Shown in pieces: positions 12,029 through 46,051 of a stretch of DNA of 64,000 nucleotides. The first letter of the stretch is position 1. Each line of letters starts with the position of its first letter. Made by a program: the position numbers and the translations under genes. This stretch comes from Endocalyx cinctus. Its lineage: Eukaryota; Ascomycota; Sordariomycetes; Amphisphaeriales; Apiosporaceae. The notes beneath the pieces were generated by a model. That model was not told the DNA's origin, did no database searches, and saw only the letters and a list, made by a program, of their open reading frames with translations. Location of the stretch: positions 254,144 through 318,143 of the forward strand of contig BCKC01000010.1 in assembly GCA_001600455.1 (NCBI GenBank), in the 5' to 3' direction.

Positions 12029-13839
12029 TCAAAACTCCATTCCTTCAGATTCCTCCCGTTCCCGCTTCACCTTAACGTCCCGCTCGTCCTTCATGAGCGC
12101 GAGCACGAAGCTGCGGAAGAGCTCGATGTAAGGCTTCAGGCTTGTCTTCTCCCAATCGTGAACGTTCTTGCCAGCGGCGGCGCCGTCTCCGGCTTCTTCG
12201 TCGCCTCCTTTCCAGCTGTCGATCTCGGCCAGCAATTCGTGCACGGTAGGCACCGTAAGCGGATCGAATTCTTCCAAATTTCTCGTGTCTATGGGTACGC
12301 AGACGCGTCCGGTACCTGGGTGGATGACGAAGGGCGATTTGAGCAAATGGTTGAGCCTCTTCGAGACCTCGATATCGAGGCGGGGGTACGTGTACTCCAG
12401 AAGTATGTCCTGCTTGGCTTCCTTTAAGATTTTTGCCTCGGCGTTCTTAATGGCACCGCGACTCGCTAACGCGTCAATGTCGGCCCATTTTGAGGCGCTC
12501 GCTCTACCGGGCGATGCATCCCATTTCTTTCGTAGGCTCTCATTTAGTGTCTTGATTGGCAGAAGAGAGAGAAGATGTTCAGCTCGAGAGCTGTCGCTCC
12601 ATGGGTCCTGAGCTTCAAGGATATCCGTCTGGAAGTGTGGTGCGAGAATCTCGAGACTCCGGCTTTCGAGATGTTAGTCATATCCGCTCAGGTTGAGATA
12701 AGTAAAGCAAGCAATGACATACCTGATATGCGGGTGAAGAGGCCTGCGCACATTGACCTTCTTTCCACCTTGAGAACCTCCGCGTAGAAGCTCTAGATAT
12801 CCCGCTATAGCCTTTCGTTTTTGATCATCCATATTACGAGCACGCTTGTCACATACCCAGGCGTGAGCACCACGACGACCTGAGTACACCCACATGATAT
12901 GCTTGAAGCCAAAATCTTCGCGGAGGGCGATATCCATGACCTTGATAGCCATAGTTATAAATTGCCAGCATTTGTTACAAATACTCTTGTCGTTGCAGCA
13001 TGTTCTTATGTCGTCGTAATCAGTAAGATCGATATCGAAGCATAGCTCTTTCGAAAGAGGCTTGAACGAGTTGGCATTTCTGAGAGTTTTCTTGTCGCGT
13101 GGGTTTGTATTATATACAGGGCCAATCTCAAAACGTAGGGGTATCTTCTGGACGATATCCTTGCGGATTCTATATTTTGATAACAAAGAATGATAGGGTC
13201 AGTTCTGACAGCTATACGTATAACAATGAGGAAAAGGAGACCGTACAGATCAGCATTGTGATACGCGTTGTAACGTATGTAGGTTTCACCTAGTGAGGTG
13301 TCTAACGTCATAGCAAATTCGCGATGGGCAAAGTCGTTGGTAGGAGTCGGACTATGGTTCAGCCATTGAAAAAGATATCGCCAGGGAAATAAGCGCTGGT
13401 AGAATATACGCAATATTTCGGGATCGGATGCCTTTAAGCCGGCTAATGCACTGTTGACATAAATCGTCAGATTAAATAATGACAATAGAGAGAGGTACAT
13501 ATAGCTGATATGTATAATTGAATCTCACCCTGGTGATGATGGGCCTTCTGGCGAGCTTGAGAATTTGTCTTGGGTCGGTTTGGAACCGGCAAACTCGTCG
13601 TCAGAGTCTATATCAGCAAAGAGATCTTCGAGTTTCACATCCTTCTTATCGTCGCTATCGGTTGTCGTCTCTGGGAGTGTTGTGGGTTCCGCCTTGATTT
13701 CTACATTTGGTGCTGTCTCTGGCTCGGCCTCGGCCATAGTAATATCATCTTGAACTTCGTTATCTGCCATGACGTCTTCTGCAGCAGCAGCAGCAGCAGG
13801 AGGAGGGCTGTGAGATTCAGGAGACACAGAATGCGGCAT
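12029..13839 (-). CDS. PRI1: DNA primase catalytic (small) subunit
   Basis: Four exons (13529-13839, 13247-13450, 12723-13169, 12029-12656; minus strand) encode 529 aa. This subunit of DNA polymerase alpha-primase makes RNA primers for replication in the nucleus. The first 100 residues are a low-complexity acidic, Ala/Pro-rich extension. The core starts with DPEILRIFYQRLFPWR. RFEIGPVYNTNPRDKKTL is a primase signature, and CFDIDLTDYDD carries the catalytic aspartates D217 and D219. C229, C230, C236 and C239 (CCNDKSICNKCW) fit the zinc motif, and SGRRGAHAWVCD is the conserved nucleotide-binding segment. The C-terminal exon matches the usual helical end. All three introns were placed by phase and by conserved sequence across each junction; the donor of the second (GTACGG) is weak. 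Identification is secure. Confidence 0.95.
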
Positions 13840-14430
13840 TGGATAATTGAAGTTGAGTTTTATATTGAGGTGGGGTTTAACTTTTTTTTTGTGCCTCTTT
13901 TTTCTCGTAATTGTTTACTTATCTCTATACTTGATTTCGGATGTTGGTGATACTGTCTGGAGGGGCTTGAAATAACTTATGGAAGAAACGCGTTTGAAGA
14001 CGCGATTTCGCGTAAATTACAAGAATACTTACATGGGTCGAACAGGGATTATAGTACTTATTTTCTTATCGATAGTGATGTTCCGGCATATTTCCGTAAT
14101 TGTTAAATCACCTAAATTTAGTACGTGCTAAGTGAAATATACTGGGTATCAAGGTCCCCTAAGAAGCTATAATTACTACCTAGGTACTACCTACCTACCT
14201 ACCTAAGTAGGTACCTAGGTACTTACTTAACTTAGCAAGTCCTTACTTAGTACACATCCACGGACATTTATTACATGCGACCACACGTATATAATATATA
14301 GAACGTATTAAGTACTTGGCATATATCAGTTGTACATAATGTATAATGATACCATGACTCAAGCTTTAAGCTGGTCCTCAATGAGAGGTAATATGAGAAA
14401 GTACTATTATTAGAGCGGGCGGCCGTAGGG
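13840..14430. other. Intergenic with dense GGTA/TACC palindromic motifs
   Basis: Upstream of the primase gene and downstream of the gasdermin-like gene. The stretch 14177-14230 is made of overlapping CTACCTAGGTA-type units on both strands and can fold back on itself. No coding signal. Confidence 0.55.
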
Positions 14431-15339
14431 TTATGTCACAACCCAATTAGAGGGAACGATCCCATCGATATCCTGTTTAATCTCGAACAAGTTTTCTGAC
14501 TCATCCTCATCAACCCCAAAGTCATCGACAAATTTCAATTTCTCGAAAGTGTCGGGTTTCTTGATCGGCTCGTCCTCGCTTAGAGTGCTTCCCGCCACTT
14601 CGTCTGATGTTTGAGGAACTCCGGATTCCCAGTAAATCTTCCGTACCCTGTAGCCCAGTACGATATTCGACGAGTATTGAACCTCGGCATTGGTGTTTTC
14701 TTCCTTTTTATATCCGCCGCCGCCGCCGATGCCTGATCCAATAACAGGATCAGCGGCTTTAACTTCTCCCCCGACTTGTGTCTTCTTGCCCTGGGCTTTC
14801 GACAGCGAGAATCCGACGGCAATCATTAATCCGGTGATCATATAAAGAGGCTGCTTTTCACCTCGACGGTCGGTTTTAGGCTTCACATTAGGGTTGCCGA
14901 GCACGTCCTCCATGTACTTATCTGTCGGGATGAAATATCTCGTCAGGATTCTGTCGATCTTGATAATGTCGCTGTTGGTGCGTTGGCAGAGCCAGCTCAA
15001 CATGCCGCTAACATCTGCCCCGGCCCTGCTCCAAAAGCTCCCTTCTAGGGAGCGCAGCTGACCTACGGTTCGTGTGACGCCACCTTTGACATCCCATAGG
15101 TCGTTGGCCAAGTTGTCGCCTTCGTCTTCCCGCAAGTTGTTATAGGCATCCTCCGTAAGACGAGGATATACGAGCTCGCGAGGCACCTTCACCCCAGGCT
15201 GGCCCCCGTTAAGAGGAAATGACACACCGTTTACGTCGAGGCTCCGTAGGATACTTCCTAGGTCCAAATGCCCTTTGGGTGGGGGTGCAATATGGAAAGT
15301 AGGACATAGGTGGTACGTAGGAACTGGGCTGATGGACAT
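14431..15339 (-). CDS. Fungal gasdermin-like pore-forming protein (HET-Q1/RCD-1 type)
   Basis: Single exon, 302 aa from ATG at 15339; an upstream in-frame start at 15390 would add a T-tract-encoded phenylalanine run and is rejected. The N-terminus (PTFHIAPPPKGHLDLGSIL, residues 13-31) with FPLN at 41-44 is the pattern I associate with fungal gasdermins. LYMITGLMIAVGFSLSK (165-181), a glycine-rich hinge (203-209) and NIVLGYRVRKIYW (225-237) follow the family's strand order. The last 65 residues are acidic and probably form the short inhibitory tail. In Podospora anserina HET-Q1 (about 278 aa) the partner protease HET-Q2 removes a roughly 5-kDa C-terminal piece and the remainder permeabilises membranes, killing the cell. 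The gene lies 397 bp downstream of a subtilase gene on the same strand, the classic arrangement. No membrane segment or signal peptide is seen. Family call from remembered pattern, not a search. Confidence 0.8.
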   Translation of the reverse strand: MSISPVPTYHLCPTFHIAPPPKGHLDLGSILRSLDVNGVSFPLNGGQPGVKVPRELVYPRLTEDAYNNLREDEGDNLANDLWDVKGGVTRTVGQLRSLEGSFWSRAGADVSGMLSWLCQRTNSDIIKIDRILTRYFIPTDKYMEDVLGNPNVKPKTDRRGEKQPLYMITGLMIAVGFSLSKAQGKKTQVGGEVKAADPVIGSGIGGGGGYKKEENTNAEVQYSSNIVLGYRVRKIYWESGVPQTSDEVAGSTLSEDEPIKKPDTFEKLKFVDDFGVDEDESENLFEIKQDIDGIVPSNWVVT

Positions 15340-15736
15340 GGCTGCTGGCTGTGACTTGGAGCAAAAAAAAAAAAAACATATTAAAGACAATTATTTAGAG
15401 TCAGTCAGCTTGCATTGAGAAGTGCGGGGGGCTTTTCTAGGTTGGCTGGCTCAGCAGCCTTATTGCCCTGCTATGCCTGCATGCTCTCTACATTACCACG
15501 TACATACATGCATATACAACATACCCCGCTTAGGCGGACGCTTGGGAGCTTCGTTTATCTACGGGCTCCTTGAGAATGGCACATGAATGCTGAGGCGCCA
15601 CATCTACTTATTAACTGAACAATATATTCCGTTACTACTCAAAAGGCAAGTCTACGTAGAATGAGAAGACGTGATCAAAGTATGGAGATCCTTCTTACGA
15701 TCAAGACAGATGAGTTTGGGAAGAGCTTATGAACTG
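15340..15736. other. Spacer between protease and gasdermin-like genes
   Basis: This 397-bp stretch separates the stop of the protease gene from the start of the gasdermin-like gene. It must carry the 3' end of one transcript and the promoter of the other. Apart from a T-rich tract just before the gasdermin start, no motif stands out. Confidence 0.5.
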
Positions 15737-18700
15737 TTAATATCGATGTGTGGCTGCGAGGATTGCGCCCTTAATGATCGCCATCTTACTCTCACTCTTA
15801 TGCCAGCCTGGGCTCCAAAACTTAGCCCAAGGCGCGATATATCTGTACCCTCCAGGACCTCCATCCGACATAATTCTAAACATCCCCTTCATCCCGCTTC
15901 CGGTTCGGAGCTTATCTCGAGTTTTCTGTTTGAAGCCCATGACGTTCGTGATATGCAGAATTCTTGCTGCGATGCCTGCCGCAATCGGCGCCGCCCAGGA
16001 CGTGCCCGATCTGTATACCTTTTCCCACCCAAACGATGATGAATCACTAGGCATGACGAACTCGATATTCATGCCTAAGGTCATGAAGTTGTCATCGCTG
16101 TTTTCGGCATAAGGGCTTATGCCTCCTTCGTTGCCGTTCCCGAAGCTCGCGTGTATGCAAATGACGTTGGGGCTTGTCATACAGCCCGGGAAAGACCTCG
16201 GTTCATTACGGCCCCGGTTCCCTGCAGCCGCGATGAATATTTTATCCGGCCTTGCCTCGATCTGTTTGGCAATCTCTGTGCGGATTCGAGACGTTTCGTC
16301 TTCGGAATCGTCTCCCGGGCTTGTATCAACGCCAAATGACATAACAACGATATCTGAGTTCCATTTGTCTTGATCGACAGCGTACGCGATAGCCTATAAG
16401 TCGATAAACGAAATTTTAGAATAGAAGAAAAAAATAAAAACAAAATCGATCTGAAAGACTTGGTTCTGAAATATAGGTCGGTAGATAGAGAGTGTATTTG
16501 GCGTAATTACATACCTCTGCAATGCATCCTGCTTCCTTAGTTGTGAAAGTACTGCTTTTGAATACCTTGGCTATACATAATTCAGCATCTGGGACTATTC
16601 TTGTCAGTAAGTCTACTACGTTAGTTCCGTGCCCATCGGTATCTTCTAGGTTAAACGGATCTTGAGTGACGTCTGGGTTACAGGTCCAATCACGGTATCG
16701 CTCTCGGCATAATTGACCTGAGCAAAACCCATCGCTCACACTCGAGTGACGCATGTTGATTCCCGTGTCTAAAACTGCTATGCGTATCTTTTGTTGAGGG
16801 TGAGTTGTCGAGTCTTGAGAAAGGCACAGTTGCTGGGCCTTGGCGCTCTGTGAATACTGCTCACATGAGAGTTTAAACCTTTCCATTTCTTGGAAAAACG
16901 TCTTTGACTTTTCTGCGTCCCTGTGAAAGTTGTAATAGCGAGCTTGTATTATAGTGTGGTGGAATCTGAAACTTACTCTTGGCTGCCATTTACGTCATGA
17001 AGAACTCCAATCACTGTATTGACATCTGAACAGCTTGGGCTTTTTTCGCTGAACCTTACTCTCTTATTTCGCGCTGAAATATTTTGCCTAGGAGGTGAAT
17101 CTTCCCCTAGGAATCCATTTGAAAACCCTAGCTGGTCATAACGGGAGGAAATCGAGGGCGTATAATATCCAGCCTCTTCATCAAAATTCGCAGCTCGCTT
17201 ACGAGTATGTAACCCGGTTTTTTCTGCGGTATCTTCCGGGCCACTCTCTTCTTGTTGTCGAATCAGCTGAATAATTTCATTGCACAAGTGCTTTCTAATA
17301 GTGGAAGTAAGGATGAGCTCTCCGGGATGCTGATGACGGAGTAACCGCTTGACTTCCACATAGCGTCGTCGAAAAGTTTGACAAATCTTAACTGCTTCCA
17401 GAAAGGGTCTGGCACTAAGATCATTCTCCATCTCTTCATTTATCACGTCTCCGAGGGTCGAGATACCAGGCTTATCATCCTCGACGTTGTTAAGTATGTC
17501 AGAACTCAACTTATACCCGAATTTGATCTCAAAAAGTAACCTTGCTAACTGAGGAAACACAACATCTCCGAGTAGCTTATCTGATGAACTGATATCATTT
17601 AGATCGTGCTGTTGTATTTCTGTGCTTCCTTGTAGAATAGATAATGCATAAGGGAGAGGTGTGTGGTCACTTTTGTGGTCACCCGCCTCGGTTAGCTGCG
17701 TGCGGAAGTAGACTCTATCTGGATCCCAGCATTTAAGTATCTGTCCTGAATCTAGTGATAGCACGAGGTAAGAAACCAGTTTAATGGCGAGAACATTTTT
17801 CTCGTGTTCGGTGAAACGAACGCCACGGAAGCCACGAACTCTAGTGGTCTTAGGAACAAAGGCATATGAGTCTAGCAACTGCTGCAGGGTCTGTGGGGGT
17901 TTCCCTTTCTGGCGAGATGACGGAAGCACTATATCTCGTGCATTATCGATGGCAAATACTTCTTTACCATAAGACGCAAGATGTAGAACTGAATCTATCG
18001 AATTTGCATCGTAAATTTCGTCGCAGAGGCTCTCGATTTGACTTAGATCCGAATCTCTGCTCTCATTATCAGCCATAAATGCCTTAGTTTATGCATTTCA
18101 GATTTACAATTTGGCGCGGACCTACGGGGAGGAAAGAGTATAAAAATAACATTCTTGCCAGCTCATCTTGTTCTGCTTTTGACATATAGAAAGGAGCAGC
18201 TCAAATGCCACATCTCGCGAGCTTAAGACGTCGTTTCCTGATTTGCTAGCATCAATGTCCGCTAGCTTCAGTAGGACTTCGTGTTCCCTTAGACATTTTG
18301 GGATGCTCTTGAGCTTATCAAGCAATGTAGTGAGCCCCCCTAAAGCTGTGGAGAGGTAATCTAGGTGTTGGCTACTGTCCATAGGCTTTGCTGGGTGACT
18401 TTCGCTTAATGGTCGGTATTCTTCTGCTATCGGACGAGTGAGTTTATTGACATACGCGTTCAAGTTGTCAATACTATCTCTTGCCAATCGCGCCACCTCT
18501 ACTGATTCGATCTGAAAGAGTTTAGGTGCAGCCCCCGTGACAATGTCAAATTTCCACTTAGAGCGATGTAGAGTAGTAATCAGACGGTCCAAATTCTGAA
18601 ATTTGGGCCTATGGGTGGCCGCAAGCTCCTCTCTCAACGGTGATTTGTCGAGGATTTGGATATTGACGATTGTCTCTAGATGTTGGCAAAGCTTGACAAG

Positions 18701-18997
18701 AAGTGACTGAACGTGAACCATTGCATTCTGATCGAGTGATCCTTCTAAGAAAATATCAAGATCATTTCTTAGTAGTAACTCGCGAAACCCTATTTCAAAT
18801 GTCTTCGACAAATTAGAAAGGTTCCCCGTGCCATTATGATTCGCTATACCGTATCCCGCTTCTTGAGTTACTTTTCCGGGGTCAAGAGGGCGATAACCAG
18901 ACAGTTTGATCAAGCGATCACGGTGGAGTCGAAGCGATTTCAACATGATCCATTCTGGGCTGATTTCTTCTGACTCGAGATGTGATAATAGAGTCAT
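15737..18997 (-). CDS. Subtilisin-like serine protease with long N-terminal regulatory region (HET-Q2-like)
   Basis: Proposed exons 18126-18997, 16977-18059, 16515-16920 and 15737-16393 encode about 1005 aa. Residues 1-650 are helical; the part around 380-560 (NVLAIKLVSYLVLSL, FPQLARLLFEIKFG, RPFLEAVKIC) resembles the fungal domain DUF7580 often found in NLR-like and HET-associated proteins. The S8 catalytic domain follows with all key residues: Asp in IAVLDTGIN (about 703), His in DTDGHGTNV (about 749), oxyanion Asn in IAAAGNRG (about 846) and Ser in YRSGTSWAAP (about 919). There is no signal peptide, so it is probably cytoplasmic. The last two introns have good ends (GTAAGT/CAG, GTATGT/TAG). 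The first (GTAGGT...GAG|C, 66 bp) is the weak point: if it is wrong, 18122-18997 and the rest are two genes only 45 bp apart. The gasdermin-like neighbour suggests this is its activating protease. Confidence 0.85.
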
Positions 18998-19374
18998 TTC
19001 GGAAAAAAAAAAAAAAAAGATATTGCTAGTTTCCTGGTATGGAGCTGTGTCTTTGGCGTCAGACGTAAATGTAATGCCCCATGAGCCTTATAAACAGGTG
19101 GGGTATGTCTTATGTAGATCTACCTTTTGCTTGACCCTGTAATAACTACAAACCGTAGTATAATCAAGCCGGGAATATTCATATTCCGGGACGCAACGGA
19201 CCCCAACCATCGACACCAGAAACCAACAGTAAGGGATTTGGATGTGAATGTGTTGCATTATACGAAAGCGGGGAACCCTGTTTCTTACCAGCCAGACAGG
19301 TCCTATCGCTGATACTTCACTCCTACCCAAAACGTCACCAGGTTAAGTGCTATGATAGATCCTATCTCCTCGAC
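18998..19374. promoter_or_regulatory. Divergent promoter between protease and FHA/pseudokinase genes
   Basis: A 377-bp bidirectional spacer separates the start codons of the protease (minus) and the FHA/pseudokinase protein (plus). It begins with a 16-nt A-tract next to the protease start. A shared short promoter makes co-expression possible; no factor site is recognised. Confidence 0.4.
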
Positions 19375-22300
19375 ATGGATGAGCCTCAAGTTCATAGTAT
19401 GGAGAAGGAGGATATGAATGATGGCCAAGCTGGCCAACCTATCCGCTCGATGGTACATGACTGCAAATTTTACTTCCAAGAGTCTCTAGTTCGCTTTGGT
19501 GCACCTGAGGACACTCGAGTGGAGGAAACACGGCTCTTTCTTGAGGAATATCACCATCGCTTCGATGCCTGGGTAGCTTACACTGGCGTTTTTGCCGACG
19601 AGTCCTCATCCCTTGATCATCGGCTGCGAAACCATTCAGGCTTACAAGACTTGATCATCAGGATTCTAGATTTGTTGCGACAGAACATATTTCTCGGTAA
19701 GCCGAAATCATTCAACTTTTTGAATACAGCGTAGAAGTTGTTAGCTGTGTTAGCTTGAGCTTACAATAGTATCAGTCAGCATCTCTAGTGTTCCTATGGT
19801 TAAGGAGGCTACTGAAACTGACAGTAGCCATCTGTGGAATCGAAGGCAACAATACGACTTACGAATATATTCCAACGTTAGCCGCACAATTTTCAGGAAT
19901 CAAAGACTCCATTACCCGCCTTAATAAACTGGGGATAGCAATTAGATTATCATCACGCTCGACTTTAATAGCTCGTGCTAGGAGGGTCATAGCTAGGCGG
20001 CCGGATATTGCTCGGTTGAGTGATTACGAAGAGATAGCTCATTCCGCCATTGACTACCTCTATCCGGGAGCACCCGAGGGCTTACGGGAGCAGCTCGCCA
20101 ATTCTATGATAGATCGATATGTAAAGTTGAAATATGAATCTTACCGCATGGGGAATCGCGGGAGCCAGCCAGATCCATCTGTGAGCGAGAATAAGGGAAC
20201 CGAAGCTCCACCGCTGGGTAACTCGAGTGGGAACCACAGAATTTCATATGATACTAAAGATTCAACCACAATTGATATGGCTGTATCATCTATAGACACA
20301 GCCCGGCTCCCTGAAATTTTCCACGCATCCAGAGTACGCTCTGTGTCGACAAAGCCTTCCGAGATCACCACAGTACGCCCAACATATGAACGGATGCCGC
20401 CTCTACCTAATTTCGAGCTCGGGAAGATGTATACTACCTGCCAGTTCTGCTTTCAAGTAGTTGGCCGCTCTCTTGTAAAGCAGAAAAAAGATGGAGGTAT
20501 AGAGTGGACGTCCGAGGGACGGTCAGTGCCTGAAAACCCCCCTTGCCTTGCTGTGGAGATACTTATCAAACCTGTCATATAGTCGTCATTACCAGAAAGA
20601 TCTCCAGCCATATGTTTGCCTCTCCGAGGCTTGCGCCAAGTCCCGACCAACGTACTCGTCATTCCATTCATGGTTTAGCCATATGTCAAATCATTCCTCA
20701 CATTGGACACAAGACATCCACGTTCAGGACACTGCCGCCAAGCGTGACGCTTCTGCCTGTCCACTTTGTTCGTTTTCTTATAAACATGCCTCGGAAAATG
20801 AAAGCGATATTGATGTTGATAATAGCTCTTCTCCGGGAAAGAGAAAACGGATAGACTCCTCAGAAATGCCAAGGAAAAAAGCAAACTTTTTGCCCAGCCA
20901 GAATGAAGCAGATGGATCAGAGGCTACACGGCAGATGGCATTGCACATCAGCACACACCTGCGTCATGTAATGATGATCTCATTGGCTTTGATGTCGAGC
21001 CTGGATGAGCCGTCTGATGGGCCATCTGATGGGCCGTCTGATGGGTCGTCTGATGGGAAACACGAAACAAAAAGTTTTGATTATTATATGCCATATTCCA
21101 TTTCAGAATTATCTAAGGATGCAAAAAACAGGAAAGAGAGGTTGGCCGAGCTATCAGACGAGTCTAGAGATTCTATGCCAGACCAAGATACGGATGGCGA
21201 ACAACCAATGCCGATCCAACTAAATCAAATCGACTCAGCTGAATTTAATCCTGCTCCACCACCCACAGACGACGAGGGGCACTGGGAGGGGTTATCCTAT
21301 GTCTCAGCTCGACAAGATATCGATCACTCCCAACATCTCAATAAGAAAAGGTTTTTCTTCTCAGAAGAGGATATGATCGACATCGTATGTTTATTGGTCC
21401 CCAGCTCAGACAATATAAAGGGTTTCATGAGAGAGATGAGGCCACATTCAGAGTATAGACACTATATGCAGTCTTTCCGCGAAACGGTCGCAAATGTAAG
21501 AGAGAGTGCTATTGTTGTAAGGTTGTCAACTAAGGTTAAAAATCCAAGCCTAGGCTTTACATTTGGGCGAAACCCACAACACTCTGATTTTTCCTACACC
21601 AACGATCCATTACGGCGCATAAGCAATGTTCACTTTTCTATACATGTGGACGAGCTTGGCGTTCCTATATTTCAAGATCACTCCACTAATGGCACTGTGG
21701 TGGGCGGTATGCTGCTGAGAGCAAAGCCGAGATCTGTATCCGAGACGAGGGTCCGTCTAACTAACGAAACAGAAATCTCTATTATCAAGGAAACAAGGTC
21801 AGAGGACTTGAACTTTAAAGTGGTAATTCCGGAACGTGATAGTGAGCAGGAAGAAGCCTATCGACAGAACGTAGTTAAGTGCGTTTGGTCAAAATTACCG
21901 GGTCGAATTCGTTTAGATGCGAGTGCTGTCCCAGCTCCTGGAGACCTAGTAAGTTCTCTTTTGTCAACACAAAAAGTGATATTACACTAATATGCGTAAT
22001 AGGACAACTCATCTCAGGAGGGAGCGCAAGGCAAAAACAGTTCGCCCTCCCTTCGTCAACTCTCTCCAGATGTAGACAGAGCGAAGGGGGCCACAAATAT
22101 GCATTGGACCCGGTCATCTGGGTATAAGGTGATCAGTGAAATTAGCAGAGCCGTCTCTGGACGTATGTACAAAGTTGAAAATATATACACAGGCTCTTCG
22201 TATGCCGCAAAGGAGATAAATGTGTCCAGCGCCCAAATCATCTTCGACCCAACGCTAGCGAAACCTAAGGTTGAGATGCTTAAGGATCTACAACACGTAA

Positions 22301-23073
22301 GTTCTCCATTTTCTATTTCTCATTCGTCACATCATTACTAATATTTTATATAGCCAAACATTGCGCGCTTTGTTGAACAAATATACTGGAATGATATCCC
22401 GATCACAATCATGGAATTTGTGCCGAGAGGAAACCTTTGGGAACTTGTTATGAATTGCGGTTACCTAGAGGAAGAAGAGGTCAAGGGTATAGCCACGCAA
22501 CTTCTGGGCGCTCTTGGCTATTTACAGGAAAAGAATATTACATATCGCGATCTGAGTCCAGGCAGCATCCTCGTGGCTTCTCGACAGCCACTTGTTACCA
22601 AGCTTTCTTGTTCCGACTTATTTATTCAGACAGCAACGACGACTAATAATGTACCCCGGACATTTTCCCTTGATGTCAATAGAGACGTCCTTTATAAGTC
22701 TCCCGAAATGTACCCATGGTATGCCGATTATAGGACAGATATCCTCGATGCGTATGAACTAGCCGCATTTGAAACGAGCAAGGCCACCTATATTTGGTCA
22801 TTGGGTTGCACCCTTTTTTATGCATTGACTGGAAAGCCTCCATTTCTAACGGAGTATATTTTTGAGCCTCAATCTAAATTATTGCAGAGGATTATGACAA
22901 CTCCTGTTAACAGAGGGTTTTTTGCAGAGGAAAATATATCTTCACCTTGCGTCGAATTCCTTACTCTAATGTTAGACAACAAGCCAGAGACTCGGGCAAC
23001 AGTTGACCAGCTTCAGCAACATATTTGGTTAAGAGATTCTGAAGACAATCGTCTCCAGGTCTCTGATGAGTGA
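19375..23073 (+). CDS. Helical/zinc-finger/FHA/pseudokinase composite protein
   Basis: Proposed exons 19375-19696, 19780-20521, 20583-21948, 22003-22296 and 22354-23073 encode about 1147 aa; the acceptor at 19779 could instead be 19788. The N-terminus looks like the helical module preceding fungal C2H2 regions (IKDSITRLNKLGIAIR; PEGLREQLANSMIDRY). A degenerate zinc-finger block follows: TCQFC, then DLQPYVCLSEAC, then ACPLC, then MALHISTHL. A PSDG tandem repeat lies at 21010-21057. An FHA domain (about 677-755) has GR, S-x-V-H-F and D-HSTNGT. A kinase fold (about 850-1140) keeps the lysine (YAAKEI), MEFVPRGNL and WSLGCTLFYALTGKPPF. However, the HRDLKxxN position reads YRDLSPGSI, DFG reads CSD and the glycine loop is gone, so it should be catalytically dead. 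It is divergent from the protease, suggesting a signalling role in the same locus. Function inferred only. Confidence 0.78.
21010..21057 (+). repeat. 12-bp coding tandem repeat (PSDG x4)
   Basis: Four near-identical 12-bp units (ccgtctgatggg and single-base variants, the last tcgtctgatggg) encode PSDG-PSDG-PSDG-SSDG in the linker between the zinc-finger and FHA regions of the pseudokinase gene. Such units can change copy number between strains. Confidence 0.85.
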
Positions 23074-23847: not shown

Positions 23848-26172
23848 CTAATCGTCATCCTCTTCCTCTTCGCTGTCCTCCTCGTCCGCGTTCTCCAACC
23901 ACTCGACAAGGGCGACGCACCTCTCCCTCACGGCCGCCATGGACTCGCCTTCCTTACCTCTAGCGTCCCCCCACCAGGCTAATATACCCTCTTCCTCGAG
24001 TATGTCCAGGTCGTACATCTGCTGCAGCATGGCCGCGAGGAGGTTTCCGGCCTTGGCCACCTCGATCGTCTTGGCCGCGCTACTAACGCAAGCCCTCTGC
24101 ACGGCCAGCGCGAATTCGACCTGCTCCGATACCGCGTCGCTGCCGACGCCGACGTCGGTTATAAATTCCACCGCGCCCTCTTTCGAGGTGAGCGTCTCCT
24201 TGGCGGCCTTCACCGGCTCTAGGCCGCCGTCCTCGCCGTTCATGAGATCGACGCCGTGACGAACGAATGCCGTCGCCACGGCTTTCCGCATGGCCACGTC
24301 GGAAGCGTTGTTAGCGAACCGTAATGACGCGAACTCGAGCTTCTCGGCGTCAAAGTTACCCGACACGCCGCGCAAGACATCTAAAAGACCGTGGACGGCT
24401 TCTGAATGGAATGACGATGAGTTGACACCCCCTGACTCGTCCGACGCAAAAGATGATAGCCGAGATCGGAAGCTGCGTTGACTAGGGGTATGTGTGAGTG
24501 CGTCAGATTCGTCATCTGACATATCGTCTTCGTCGGCAAAGGTTGAGACTGAGGAATTGCAGATATCTATGTGATCGAGAGAGTATATGAGAGACTTTTG
24601 TAACCGTGCTGGATCGTCTTCCTCTAATTCATCATCTTCCGGGTCGTGGTATACAGCTCCTTTCCCTTGGGGACCGACAACTTCGGGCCGAGAATCGATG
24701 GGTGATCCGTCGTACGCCAGGAGTGAAATAGCCGATGAGTCGCTGATCCGAATGCCGTCATCAATGCGGACACCGAAGGATAATAAAGACCCCGGACCAA
24801 TAAAGCTTTTTTTCCCAGCAAAAGTCATGTCTGCCAGTACCGCATGCTCGATAACCGCCCCATCATCTACCACAACATCATCCCAAAGAAAACTGTCGAC
24901 TATGCGCACATTGCTCCCAATCTTGCAGTTTCGACCAATCATGCTATTGCGTATCGTACTCTGAGGCCCTATATGCGTGTCCCGGCCAATGACAGAGTCG
25001 CTGACTTCACATTCGTCGAGCACAACATCGTCTTCTTGGAACACATTCTCGTCGCGAAGCTTATAAGACTGGCCATTCAGCAGGTTCATATCAGGCGTAA
25101 AGGGGTAAACCCAGCCACCTAATATATCACGACTTATGGCGTCGTACATCTGGAGATTGCTAACACGAGCGCAATAACCCTCGGTGACAATTTCCGTATG
25201 GATCATCTTACCGTTCAACTCCCAATCTTTCAGGACTCCGTGTAAGAAGTTGGCGCGGGGAAGAGCGTAGTCGAAACTGTCAGACCATAAAGCAAGCACG
25301 TCGGGAGTACATATGTCTATCTGAGCGTCTATCAAGTCGGTTCGAGCTTCGGCTTCGCTATTCTCGAGCACGGTGGGATCGAGATTGACGTATCGTTCGG
25401 TTTGTAGCGGGTGTATCTCCTCATAATGTAAACATCTGTTCTTTTGGGGGTCGATCACAAATGCCGGTGTTATTGCCTTTGCCTTCGTGTTGTGATCTTC
25501 CTCGCCAGCTTCTCGCAAGACCATGGTCATGCAAGAGTCGCGATTTGCTTCTCTCCGAGCTCTGTGGGCGGCCAAAGCGGCATCGAGAGGAATATTGGCG
25601 ACGAGATCGCCATGGACTAGGACAAAGTCTCCTCCAATAATATTGCGCTTGTCCAAATCGCGTAGGAAGTCGCCTATACTACCAGCATCGGCCACGCGTA
25701 TGAATTCGAGGGTAGAGAAGGGACATGACTTAGTTATGGGCGACCAGCGAGAATCGTGAATGTATCGCTCAATCTGTTCATGATGCGCGCCACAATATAT
25801 GAAGACCTCCTGAACGCCATTCATAGCCAGGAACTCTAAGGTGTATTCGATGAGTGGAGTATTCGCTAGGGGAAGCAGACACTGTTGGCGCATTAGGTCC
25901 GATCTTGATTATAACTTTACTTTTGTTCAACTTACTCTTGGTTTGTCGACAGCGAAGGGGGCGAATCTGTTCTGAAACGAGTCTGCTATAATCTTTGACG
26001 ATGTTTTCGAACGAGTCAGTTGGAAGGTCGTGGTAAAAGTAACGTTTATACGTAGTCGGGATATACATACAACAGCTTGTAGAACATCTTCCTGTTTCTC
26101 CTCGGATCCTACCTTGCCACCTTTTTTGCCTTTTGAGGCAGCGCCACCTTTGGCACTTTTACTATGTGACAT
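23848..26172 (-). CDS. GCD6: Translation initiation factor eIF2B, epsilon subunit
   Basis: Three exons (26067-26172, 25936-25985, 23848-25881; minus strand) encode 729 aa, close to yeast Gcd6 (712). It is the catalytic guanine-nucleotide exchange subunit for eIF2 in the cytosol. After a Lys/Gly-rich start comes EEKQEDVLQAVV and ADSFQNRFAPF, then CLLPLANTPLIEYTLEFL and VFIYCGAHHEQI of the nucleotidyltransferase-like domain. A left-handed beta-helix of hexapeptide repeats follows (VIGRDTHIGPQSTIRNSMIG, NVRIVDSFLWDDVVVDDG). An acidic linker (DPEDDELEEDDP) precedes the C-terminal W2/HEAT exchange domain, which ends in the acidic AA-box region LAWWGD and VEWLENADEEDSEEEEDDD. The middle exon is only 50 bp, and the first donor (GTATAT, after VV) was chosen because it keeps phase and yields the conserved VV-x-ADSF join. 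Identification secure. Confidence 0.95.
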
Positions 26173-43946: not shown

Positions 43947-46051
43947 ATGAGAGTAGTATGTAAACCTCCCGCCCCATACATGGCTACTCGTGGCCATTTC
44001 GAGAGAGTATCGAGGATCAATGACTTGCTAATACCGAATATACCTATGCATTTCACAGAAGGCATTTGCAGTTGGACAAAAACTTTCGAAGAGTAATAAA
44101 GACTTCACACTTCTCACTTTGGGTAGTGGGGACGAGGTGGATATTGTTCTTCTCAACAGTCAACTAAAACGAAACCAGTGCAAGTTCCTATTCAACCCGG
44201 AAAGTGGTGCCGTACTCTTCTGCAATAATCACAAGGATGACAATATCAAGACAGACCATTTCCCGGACCGGAAGATCAAGAATGCTGACTTCCGCGCCCA
44301 CCGGTTGCCCGTGGTGGTGAGTGAGTAACAAGATTCGATCTTCTTCTTATCCGATATAAATTTGGCCCCGTCTCGGGATATTGATTTTTTTTTTGACCAA
44401 ACCCTGTCTGCTCAGTGCCGGGATTCAACCCGATAGTAACGATTGGTCGCGGTTCCAATTCGGCCTCGTTCGAGCTTATCTGGCCCGACAAACCCGACAC
44501 GAGCTTCGCAAAAGTGCTCAAAAATGCCGACGACGATCTCAAAGCGAGAAAATATAGCTCGACGCAGATAAGTGATTATTGGGACAAGGCCCATCAAGAT
44601 TTCCAAGGTTTTTACGAGAGAGAATTGGAAAGCGGTCGCGAGCTTATAGCCCGACCCTTGTATGAGCTCGGCCGCGGCGGGTTTGGCACCGTAGAGAAGA
44701 GTATCGATATATATTCAGGTCGACTAATGGCGGTCAAGAAACTTAAACCAGGTCGCGCTTCGGACACACAACTTCAAATGTTTCATAGAGAGGCAAGGGT
44801 CATGAAAAGGATTAGCCATGTAAGTTCAAATCTAAGGTTTGTACCGGTAGCTTCCAAGTGAGCTATAATACTGATATTTGACTGGGGCGCGGGGGGAGCG
44901 CCTTTGTAAAATGGAAAATGCGTAGCGGAATATAGTGAAGTTCATCAGCGCCTTGCAAACAGGCACCAGTCAGATACAGATATTCATGGAGCTGAGACGG
45001 GGAAATTTACGAGATTTAGCAAAGACCATAGACATTTCTGAAGAGAACTGCAGCCATCATATCCTCGGGGATATGCTCGAAGCGCTGCAATACCTTGCCT
45101 ATCGGAACATCGGCCATCGTGACGTGAAGCCTGAAAACATCTTATACGATGTTAGGCCAGACAAATACGCGGTTTTCCAACTGGGTGACTTTGGCTTGGC
45201 GAGAACGCTGGAGGGAGACAAGGCAACGCCCTGTGGAACTTTGTCATACACAGCACCTGAAGTGCTTTGGTAAGTATGGGAACATCCCGTAGTAGTATTT
45301 TTCCTCCTCCTCCTCCTCCTCCTCCCCCCCTCCTCCTATAAGCTTGAGCTAACGCTTGGACGGCAGTAAGTAATTTAAACCTCTTTACTCTAGAATATAC
45401 CGGGACATTCCACAAAGCGGGGGTGAAAAAAAAAATGAAAAAAAAAGGAAAAAGAGGAAAGTATGAAAGCTACTAACGTAAGATGTCTTTAACTACTATA
45501 GTCAACAGGGAACAAACACCTAAAGCCGAGTGAGTTTCCCTGCCTCTCTTTCACTCCCCGAGTAGTATAATACCGGGATGAACTGTGGGGGTACAAAAAG
45601 ACGAGAGGTGATTAACTTTTGTCTGCGGTAGCGTGTGGTCTTTGTTTGTCACCATGTTATGGGTCCACGACGTAGAAGACTTTCGCCAAGTGGAGGGTTC
45701 ATGGCCCTCGACGCCGGGACCGGGGCACTACTTCGCGATACAAGCAGCTTTGAAGTGCAAAGAAGTGGAGCATATCCGGGAGATGGGAATCTACGACGAT
45801 CAGCTGCGCGCATCGGCAACAGAAATGTTACAGAAGCTATTCTACCCGGCGCATACGCCTCTGGATCATAAGTGGACAGAGGTGAGTTGAACATGATATG
45901 ATCCTTTTGTCTGATTTGGCGTTGAAGATTTGCTGACTCCACGATTCTTCCGTTGTAGTGGGCTTATCAATGGTACAATGGAAAGTATAATTTCGGCTCA
46001 GAGCTAGAATTTGTTGTAGAGATGGGAAAGAAAATGAATATGGATATGTAG
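43947..46051 (+). CDS. FHA-domain serine/threonine protein kinase
   Basis: Proposed exons 43947-43955, 44059-44320, 44416-44819, 44926-45269, 45509-45529, 45632-45881 and 45959-46051 encode about 460 aa. An N-terminal FHA-like domain (LLTLGSGDEVDIVL, QCKFLFNPESGAV) precedes a complete kinase domain: glycine loop ELGRGGFGTVEK (about 174-185), lysine in MAVKKL, HRDVKPENIL, GDFGLA, GTLSYTAPEVL and KADVWSL. All catalytic residues are present. A 21-nt exon supplies WEQTPKA between the activation segment and DVWSL; it fits phase on both sides, whereas simply joining the longer exons loses the frame. The nine-base first exon (MRV) is inferred from a GTATGT donor and a GCTAAT branch site upstream of the AAGGCA exon; it is the least certain part. 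Rad53/Chk2-like order, but no DNA-damage role can be claimed; an independent fungal FHA-kinase family is equally likely. Confidence 0.82.

Follow-up and report, generated by a model that had tools for sequence, protein, structure and literature searches.

The gasdermin locus of Endocalyx cinctus

We analyzed a 64,000-nucleotide stretch of the genome of the filamentous ascomycete Endocalyx cinctus (contig BCKC01000010.1 of GenBank assembly GCA_001600455.1, positions 254,144 to 318,143; hereafter the window), in which a gene for a predicted fungal gasdermin lies next to the gene for a protease of the S8 (subtilase) family. The initial annotation of the window had read these two genes as a het-Q1/het-Q2-type cell-death module at 14431..18997. 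That interval holds both genes; it omits a third gene, transcribed divergently from the protease gene, which recurs at related loci of the same genome. The features of the locus are as follows (coordinates in the window):

14431..15339, (−) strand: predicted fungal gasdermin (fGSDM), single exon, 302 aa; core to about residue 237, acidic tail at residues 238-302
15737..18997, (−) strand: protease gene, four exons, 1004 aa; helical N-terminal region, DUF7580, Peptidase_S8
18997-18126, 18056-16977, 16920-16515 and 16393-15737, (−) strand: protease exons of the splicing model
15953..16793, (−) strand: Peptidase_S8 match (Pfam), two exon pieces
17252..18331, (−) strand: DUF7580 match (Pfam), two exon pieces, profile positions 12-68 and 72-315 of 319
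18998..19374: intergenic stretch, 377 bases separating the divergent start codons of the protease gene and the third gene
19375..23073, (+) strand: third gene, several exons; helical N-terminus, C2H2-like segment, FHA, RAD53/CHK2-like kinase
19159-19731, 19770-20579, 20503-21987, 22003-22338 and 22354-23070, (+) strand: open frames of the third gene (not exon borders)

The gasdermin and the protease

The gasdermin frame, read from 15339 to 14431 on the (−) strand, is unbroken, and its translation contains all three segments cited in the initial annotation. The Pfam scan of this protein gave no matching model, and a search with the single sequence against 177,635 PDB sequences returned RCD-1-2 (E 0.018) and HET-Q1 (E 0.08) as its two best matches. 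Eleven homologs are 35-60% identical to it and include proteins of Nemania abortiva, Thozetella, Trichoderma and Gaeumannomyces. The window protein and 10 of the 11 homologs (P0010 was excluded for its long extension) were combined in a profile, which matched RCD-1-2 at 8.8e-8, RCD-1-1 at 3.7e-6, HET-Q1 at 2.4e-4 and the bacterial gasdermin 7n50 at 0.012, all three kinds that the initial annotation had proposed for comparison; gasdermins account for six of the seven PDB matches at E ≤ 1. An AlphaFold model, built from 20 aligned sequences for 301 residues (the first Met left off), is of moderate quality, with a mean predicted local distance difference test score (pLDDT) of 59.6, a predicted template modeling (TM) score of 0.60 and a pLDDT below 50 in the tail. 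A predicted structure lacking the gasdermin core had been named as a point against the assignment; the top 20 Foldseek matches of this moderate model are all gasdermins, the best being 8jyy_H (E 2.3e-7, target TM 0.57). Profile, fold and a homolog of 60% identity in Nemania abortiva bear out the assignment of the 302-aa protein as a fungal gasdermin, which would form pores.

The tail (residues 238-302) comprises 65 residues and 7.2 kDa, with 18 Asp/Glu against 5 Lys/Arg, and its D272-D273 pair is invariant across 12 aligned sequences. The homolog set aside from the profile, P0010 of Trichoderma cf. simile, is a gasdermin with an N-terminal extension of ~166 residues containing a C2H2-like stretch (pairwise E 3e-5 and 0.009 across 31 residues), a hint that a partner gene and a gasdermin may perhaps have been merged in one gene model.

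The protease gene lies upstream of the gasdermin gene on the same strand, 397 bases away. The intact subtilase triad claimed for it was confirmed after splicing to four exons: D702 (DTG), H748 (GHGT) and S918 (GTS), together with N845 (AAAGN). Introns 2 and 3 have the donors GTAAGT and GTATGT, and the border of intron 1 was chosen from 17 frame-preserving options. The four-exon model is supported by Nemania abortiva P0020, to which the spliced protein is 45% identical over 100% of its length. All DUF7580 and Peptidase_S8 pieces exceed the curated Pfam cut-offs. Outside S8, AlphaFold modeled P0020 poorly (mean pLDDT 41). The 377-base stretch upstream of the protease gene would carry both its promoter and that of the third gene.

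The gasdermin-protease pair in Nemania abortiva and elsewhere in the genome

Conservation of the pair extends to Nemania abortiva, in agreement with the synteny that the initial annotation had put forward as a check. The gasdermin homolog there (P0001, F5Y10DRAFT_249673) is 60% identical over the full length and the protease homolog (P0020, F5Y10DRAFT_249672) carries the consecutive tag; adjacency was read from these tags, each protein being listed on a 135,461-base contig.

We searched the whole E. cinctus genome (44.76 Mb, 15 contigs). Three places matched the gasdermin query at E ≤ 0.001: the window on C10, C11:537201 and C7:2513349. The S8 family gave 50 match rows, which merged into 31 loci, and DUF7580 occurs at 8 loci. 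Both S8 and DUF7580 are present at three loci (C10, C11 and C7), and these are exactly the three with a gasdermin-like place, all within 7 kb. The chance that three gasdermins would all fall within 7 kb of any of the 31 S8 loci is roughly 9e-7, a figure that assumes random and independent positions. At C11 (L035) the DUF7580-S8 gene is on the (+) strand and the gasdermin, 6038-5175, on the (−) strand, tail to tail. At C7 (L034) the DUF7580-S8 gene, 3705-695 (−), appears complete by eye and the gasdermin is an N-terminal remnant, 7577-7191 (−), which covers only profile positions 4-84 of 289; the executioner seems to have been lost at this locus while the protease remains. The proposed pairing of gasdermin and subtilase thus gains support from Nemania abortiva and from two other clusters in this genome, of which one holds a gasdermin remnant only.

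With the window protein, its C11 counterpart or P0016 as query, no gasdermin turned up outside these three places (only the window query reached the C7 remnant), in searches that could miss other gasdermin clades altogether. The gasdermin profile found none further on the flanks of the 31 S8 loci, at least ~1.5 kb per side, a width that could miss spacing like that at C7. Seven S8 loci were read by eye with wider flanks: six resemble secreted sedolisin-type peptidases and one an intracellular S8 protease without gasdermin. A short frame at L003 842-1102 (+), which overlaps the end of the C11 subtilase frame, has a GLDVGSIL stretch resembling a gasdermin N-terminus; the gasdermin profile misses this frame.

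A divergent partner gene at DUF7580 loci

The third gene of the window encodes an FHA domain (E 1.4e-5) and a protein kinase (E 9.1e-24) in the domain scan. Against the PDB the kinase matches RAD53 best (2.1e-15), with CHK2 also matched, and its best other match in the genome, C3:1653048, is 39% identical. We searched the genome with the C2H2-like segment of three genes (the window gene, the C11 partner and the C10b partner) and pooled the results. Open matches were found at seven loci on six contigs (C10, C11, C7, C2, C5, C10b and C9), and all seven partners are transcribed divergently to a DUF7580 gene, the matched parts lying 2.3-3.0 kb apart. A divergent partner is therefore present at seven of the eight DUF7580 loci, and four of these seven have no subtilase. 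The eighth locus, C12, gave no partner match inside the 7 kb read. Partners are 32-43% identical to one another in the matched segment. The C10b query gave the stronger matches at C2 (3.9e-39), C5 (4.3e-21) and C9 (5.6e-6); its 12 rows consist of itself, four partner loci (C2, C5, C9 and C7), six rows whose match starts no earlier than query residue 148 (the zinc-finger tail, excluded from the partner count) and C5:3405434. Seven of the eight segment matches pair with DUF7580.

Most of the partners also share their N-terminus. When each sequence in turn was left out of the N-terminal profile, the profile recovered the window gene at 4.4e-11, C11 at 1.4e-9, C2 at 2.3e-8 and C7 at 3.0e-8, and the six-sequence profile finds C10b, which it does not contain, at 8e-19. 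The C-termini vary: FHA and kinase in the window, a kinase at C11, ankyrin repeats at C7 and zinc fingers at C10b. Scans of the partner frames at C7, C2, C5, C9 and C10b revealed no kinase; further exons may exist at the last four.

Sequence resemblance of DUF7580 to protein kinases

A profile of the eight DUF7580 segments of the genome gave 83 PDB matches at E ≤ 10, the best 60 of which comprise only protein kinases and the pseudokinase MLKL (IRAK4 first at 7.7e-5, MLKL at 0.024). Without the C12 sequence the best match is IRAK4 at 0.0011 and kinases fill the first 33 of 58 rows, with a few later rows that are not kinases. These profile matches suggest that DUF7580 is distantly kinase-like. 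By eye, the aligned segments have no catalytic Asp of the HRD type, so the domain is likely a pseudokinase.

The DUF7580 genes at C2, C5, C9 and C10b have neither an S8 nor a gasdermin match in the stretch read, and in the alignment their N-termini are hydrophobic and helical. In an N-terminal motif they seem to resemble HeLo-like domains, a likeness that was not confirmed: among 18 PDB matches at E ≤ 10 none is HeLo or MLKL, and Pfam gave none either. At least two outputs are thus combined with DUF7580, one of them of unproven kind. At C12 (L043 1341-3599) a protein kinase and, after it, DUF7580 are encoded in one reading frame; this fusion links the two types of part carried elsewhere by divergent genes. 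In Trichoderma compactum, P0024 combines DUF7580 with PF01048, a nucleoside phosphorylase domain that also occurs on fungal NOD-like receptors (NLRs).

A proposed three-gene death module

We consider it fairly probable that the three genes form a death module in which a sensor acts on a pseudokinase-protease and this in turn on a gasdermin, with sensor and output exchangeable. The biochemical steps, the direction of signaling and the contact between partners we infer as follows. The gasdermin would be produced inactive, its pore-forming part restrained by the short acidic tail. The 1004-aa protein would be the relay, its helical and DUF7580 parts restraining the subtilase until a signal arrives. 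By analogy with the cutting of HET-Q1 by HET-Q2, the released subtilase would remove the 65-residue tail, and the cleaved gasdermin would open pores in the plasma membrane and kill the cell, as the Q2-like proteases and HET-Q1/HET-Q2 suggest. The third gene, divergent from the protease gene, would encode a sensor or licensing subunit that contacts DUF7580 through its helical N-terminus and C2H2-like segment, while its exchangeable C-terminus (FHA and a RAD53/CHK2-like kinase here, ankyrin repeats or another kinase at the sister loci) would detect attack or damage. The differing C-termini of the partners suggest that differing things are sensed.

A wider proposal, which we offer tentatively and with less than even confidence, is that DUF7580 forms, with its divergent helical/C2H2 partner, a control pair that is general in fungal immunity and exchangeable. 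On the output side the pair would govern a gasdermin-cutting subtilase, a putative HeLo-like membrane domain or, in Trichoderma, a nucleoside phosphorylase domain; on the sensor side it would carry a RAD53/CHK2-like FHA-kinase, another kinase or ankyrins. If true, one modular receptor pair would switch both pyroptosis-like and necroptosis-like death.

Several observations weigh against the three-gene module. The C7 gasdermin is truncated, lies beyond the partner gene and is ~6 kb from its S8 match. The segment matches are weak at C9 with the window query (0.064) and at C10b with the C11 query (0.0089), and the left-one-out N-terminal profile fails at C5 (E 4.6) and is weak at C9 (0.071); this profile was searched in the window and the eight fetched loci only. 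The segment match at C5:3405434 has seven stops and no DUF7580 nearby and was counted as a miss; the 6 kb read there showed no DUF7580, partner N-terminus or gasdermin, and its one gasdermin-profile match (E 0.13 over 12 positions) was taken as chance. The seven DUF7580/partner pairs may stem from one ancestral pair or old duplications and are not seven independent events, although identity between partners is as low as 32-43%; the recurrence of the third gene was read in one genome. The kinase-likeness of DUF7580 comes solely from sequence profiles, since the model of P0020 is too poor in that region.

Alternative explanations

A plain two-gene fGSDM/Q2-like cluster would need less: the protease would sense and cut alone, and the third gene would be an unrelated neighbor or would share only the promoter region. 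Clusters of this type are described in reviews, and the long N-terminal part of the protease could itself sense. Given divergent partners at seven of the eight DUF7580 loci, on six contigs and including four without an S8 or gasdermin match in the stretch read, we hold this explanation to be unlikely. Decay of the locus, leaving it silent and without present function, could be read from the truncated gasdermin at the sister locus on C7; in the window, however, ordinary splicing leaves open frames for gasdermin and protease, no triad residue is lost and each protein has a full-length match in Nemania abortiva, so that decay appears very improbable.

Two further explanations concern what the third gene does. 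In a relay like that of RIPK3 and MLKL, its kinase would phosphorylate the DUF7580 pseudokinase and thereby unlock the subtilase. The kinases that head the DUF7580 profile made without C12, the match to MLKL once C12 is included, the kinases carried by the window and C11 partners and the kinase-DUF7580 fusion at C12 are all consistent with such a relay, which is possible at C10 and C11. The C7 partner frames hold ankyrin repeats and no kinase, and the scanned partner frames at C2, C5, C9 and C10b hold none either, so phosphorylation is unlikely as the common mechanism, and as an account of the module we rate the relay quite improbable. The three-gene module may also take a special form in which the FHA-kinase end is an integrated decoy, a bait derived from the checkpoint kinase and guarded by the death module. 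RAD53 is the best PDB match of the kinase and an FHA domain lies upstream of it, the C-termini of partners vary between loci, and nine Sordariales NLRs end in C-terminal CHK-2-like kinases for which a decoy role has been proposed (PMC12258605). We nevertheless regard the decoy as doubtful: no effector is known, and identity of the kinase to its best other match in the genome, on C3, is no more than 39%, so the capture would be old. Sensor, pseudokinase-protease and gasdermin acting in sequence remains the reading we prefer.

Surroundings in the window

On one side of the cluster lies a gene at 12029-13914 (−) that by eye we take to resemble the small subunit of DNA primase, and on the other a gene at 23848-25908 (−) that we take to resemble eIF2B epsilon; the cluster therefore seems to be set between housekeeping genes. 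A further protein kinase match (E 1.2e-21) with one internal stop lies at 44923-45267 (+), corresponding to C10:299066-299410.

Comparison with known systems

In Podospora anserina, HET-Q2 presumably cleaves HET-Q1 after F238, removing 40 residues or ~5 kDa (PMC10989679; PMC12881547). The E. cinctus locus resembles this system in a fungal gasdermin with a short C-terminal tail and an S8 protease. It differs in that het-Q1 and het-Q2 are idiomorphs and HET-Q2 is a protease of 388 aa (PMC12881547; PMC10989679), whereas here, in the one strain analyzed, the gasdermin and protease genes coexist side by side, the protease has 1004 aa with DUF7580 and a third gene is present. Of the het-Q1/het-Q2-type label, the gasdermin/S8 pairing stands and the idiomorph locus does not. 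Because the genes adjoin and the protease is a 1004-aa protein with DUF7580, the right comparison is with the fGSDM/Q2-like (Q2L) clusters, not with the het locus.

About 80% of fungal gasdermin genes adjoin a protease gene and ~63% an S8 gene (PMC10197012), and proteases fused to WD40, TPR, ANK or kinase-like domains, in two- or three-gene clusters, have been reviewed (PMC12881547). Like the Q2L clusters, the locus has a gasdermin less than 10 kb from a multidomain S8 protease; it differs in the divergent partner gene, which recurs at DUF7580 loci without gasdermin. We found no description of such a partner in the excerpts of the fungal gasdermin literature consulted, and the primary fGSDM catalogue, which lies outside this comparison, may list such neighbors. 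Literature searches for DUF7580, and for gasdermin together with C2H2, fungi, gene cluster and kinase, returned no paper.

RCD-1 of Neurospora crassa shares the gasdermin fold and is the best fold and profile match, yet it acts through two alleles and without cleavage (PMC12881547). The tail and the neighboring protease favor proteolysis over the RCD-1 mode here. The bacterial gasdermin-protease clusters, which are prokaryotic, are similar in the adjoining protease, the short tail and the match to 7n50. We know of none with DUF7580 or with a third gene of this kind. RIPK3-MLKL necroptosis is comparable in having a kinase-like relay domain beside a kinase partner; its output differs from the protease and gasdermin found here, and the PDB search left the four-helix nature of the sister-locus N-termini unconfirmed. 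A kinase-like relay would bring fungal gasdermin death close to necroptosis in its logic, and the RAD53/CHK2-like end of the third gene parallels the CHK-2-like kinases on fungal NLRs.

A 2025 review (PMC12881547) names as a major open question which stimuli trigger the putative sensors of these fungal death pathways, and the recurrent divergent partner is a concrete candidate for the switch of fungal gasdermin death. The gasdermin-protease pair is an already known type of cluster; the divergent partner goes further.

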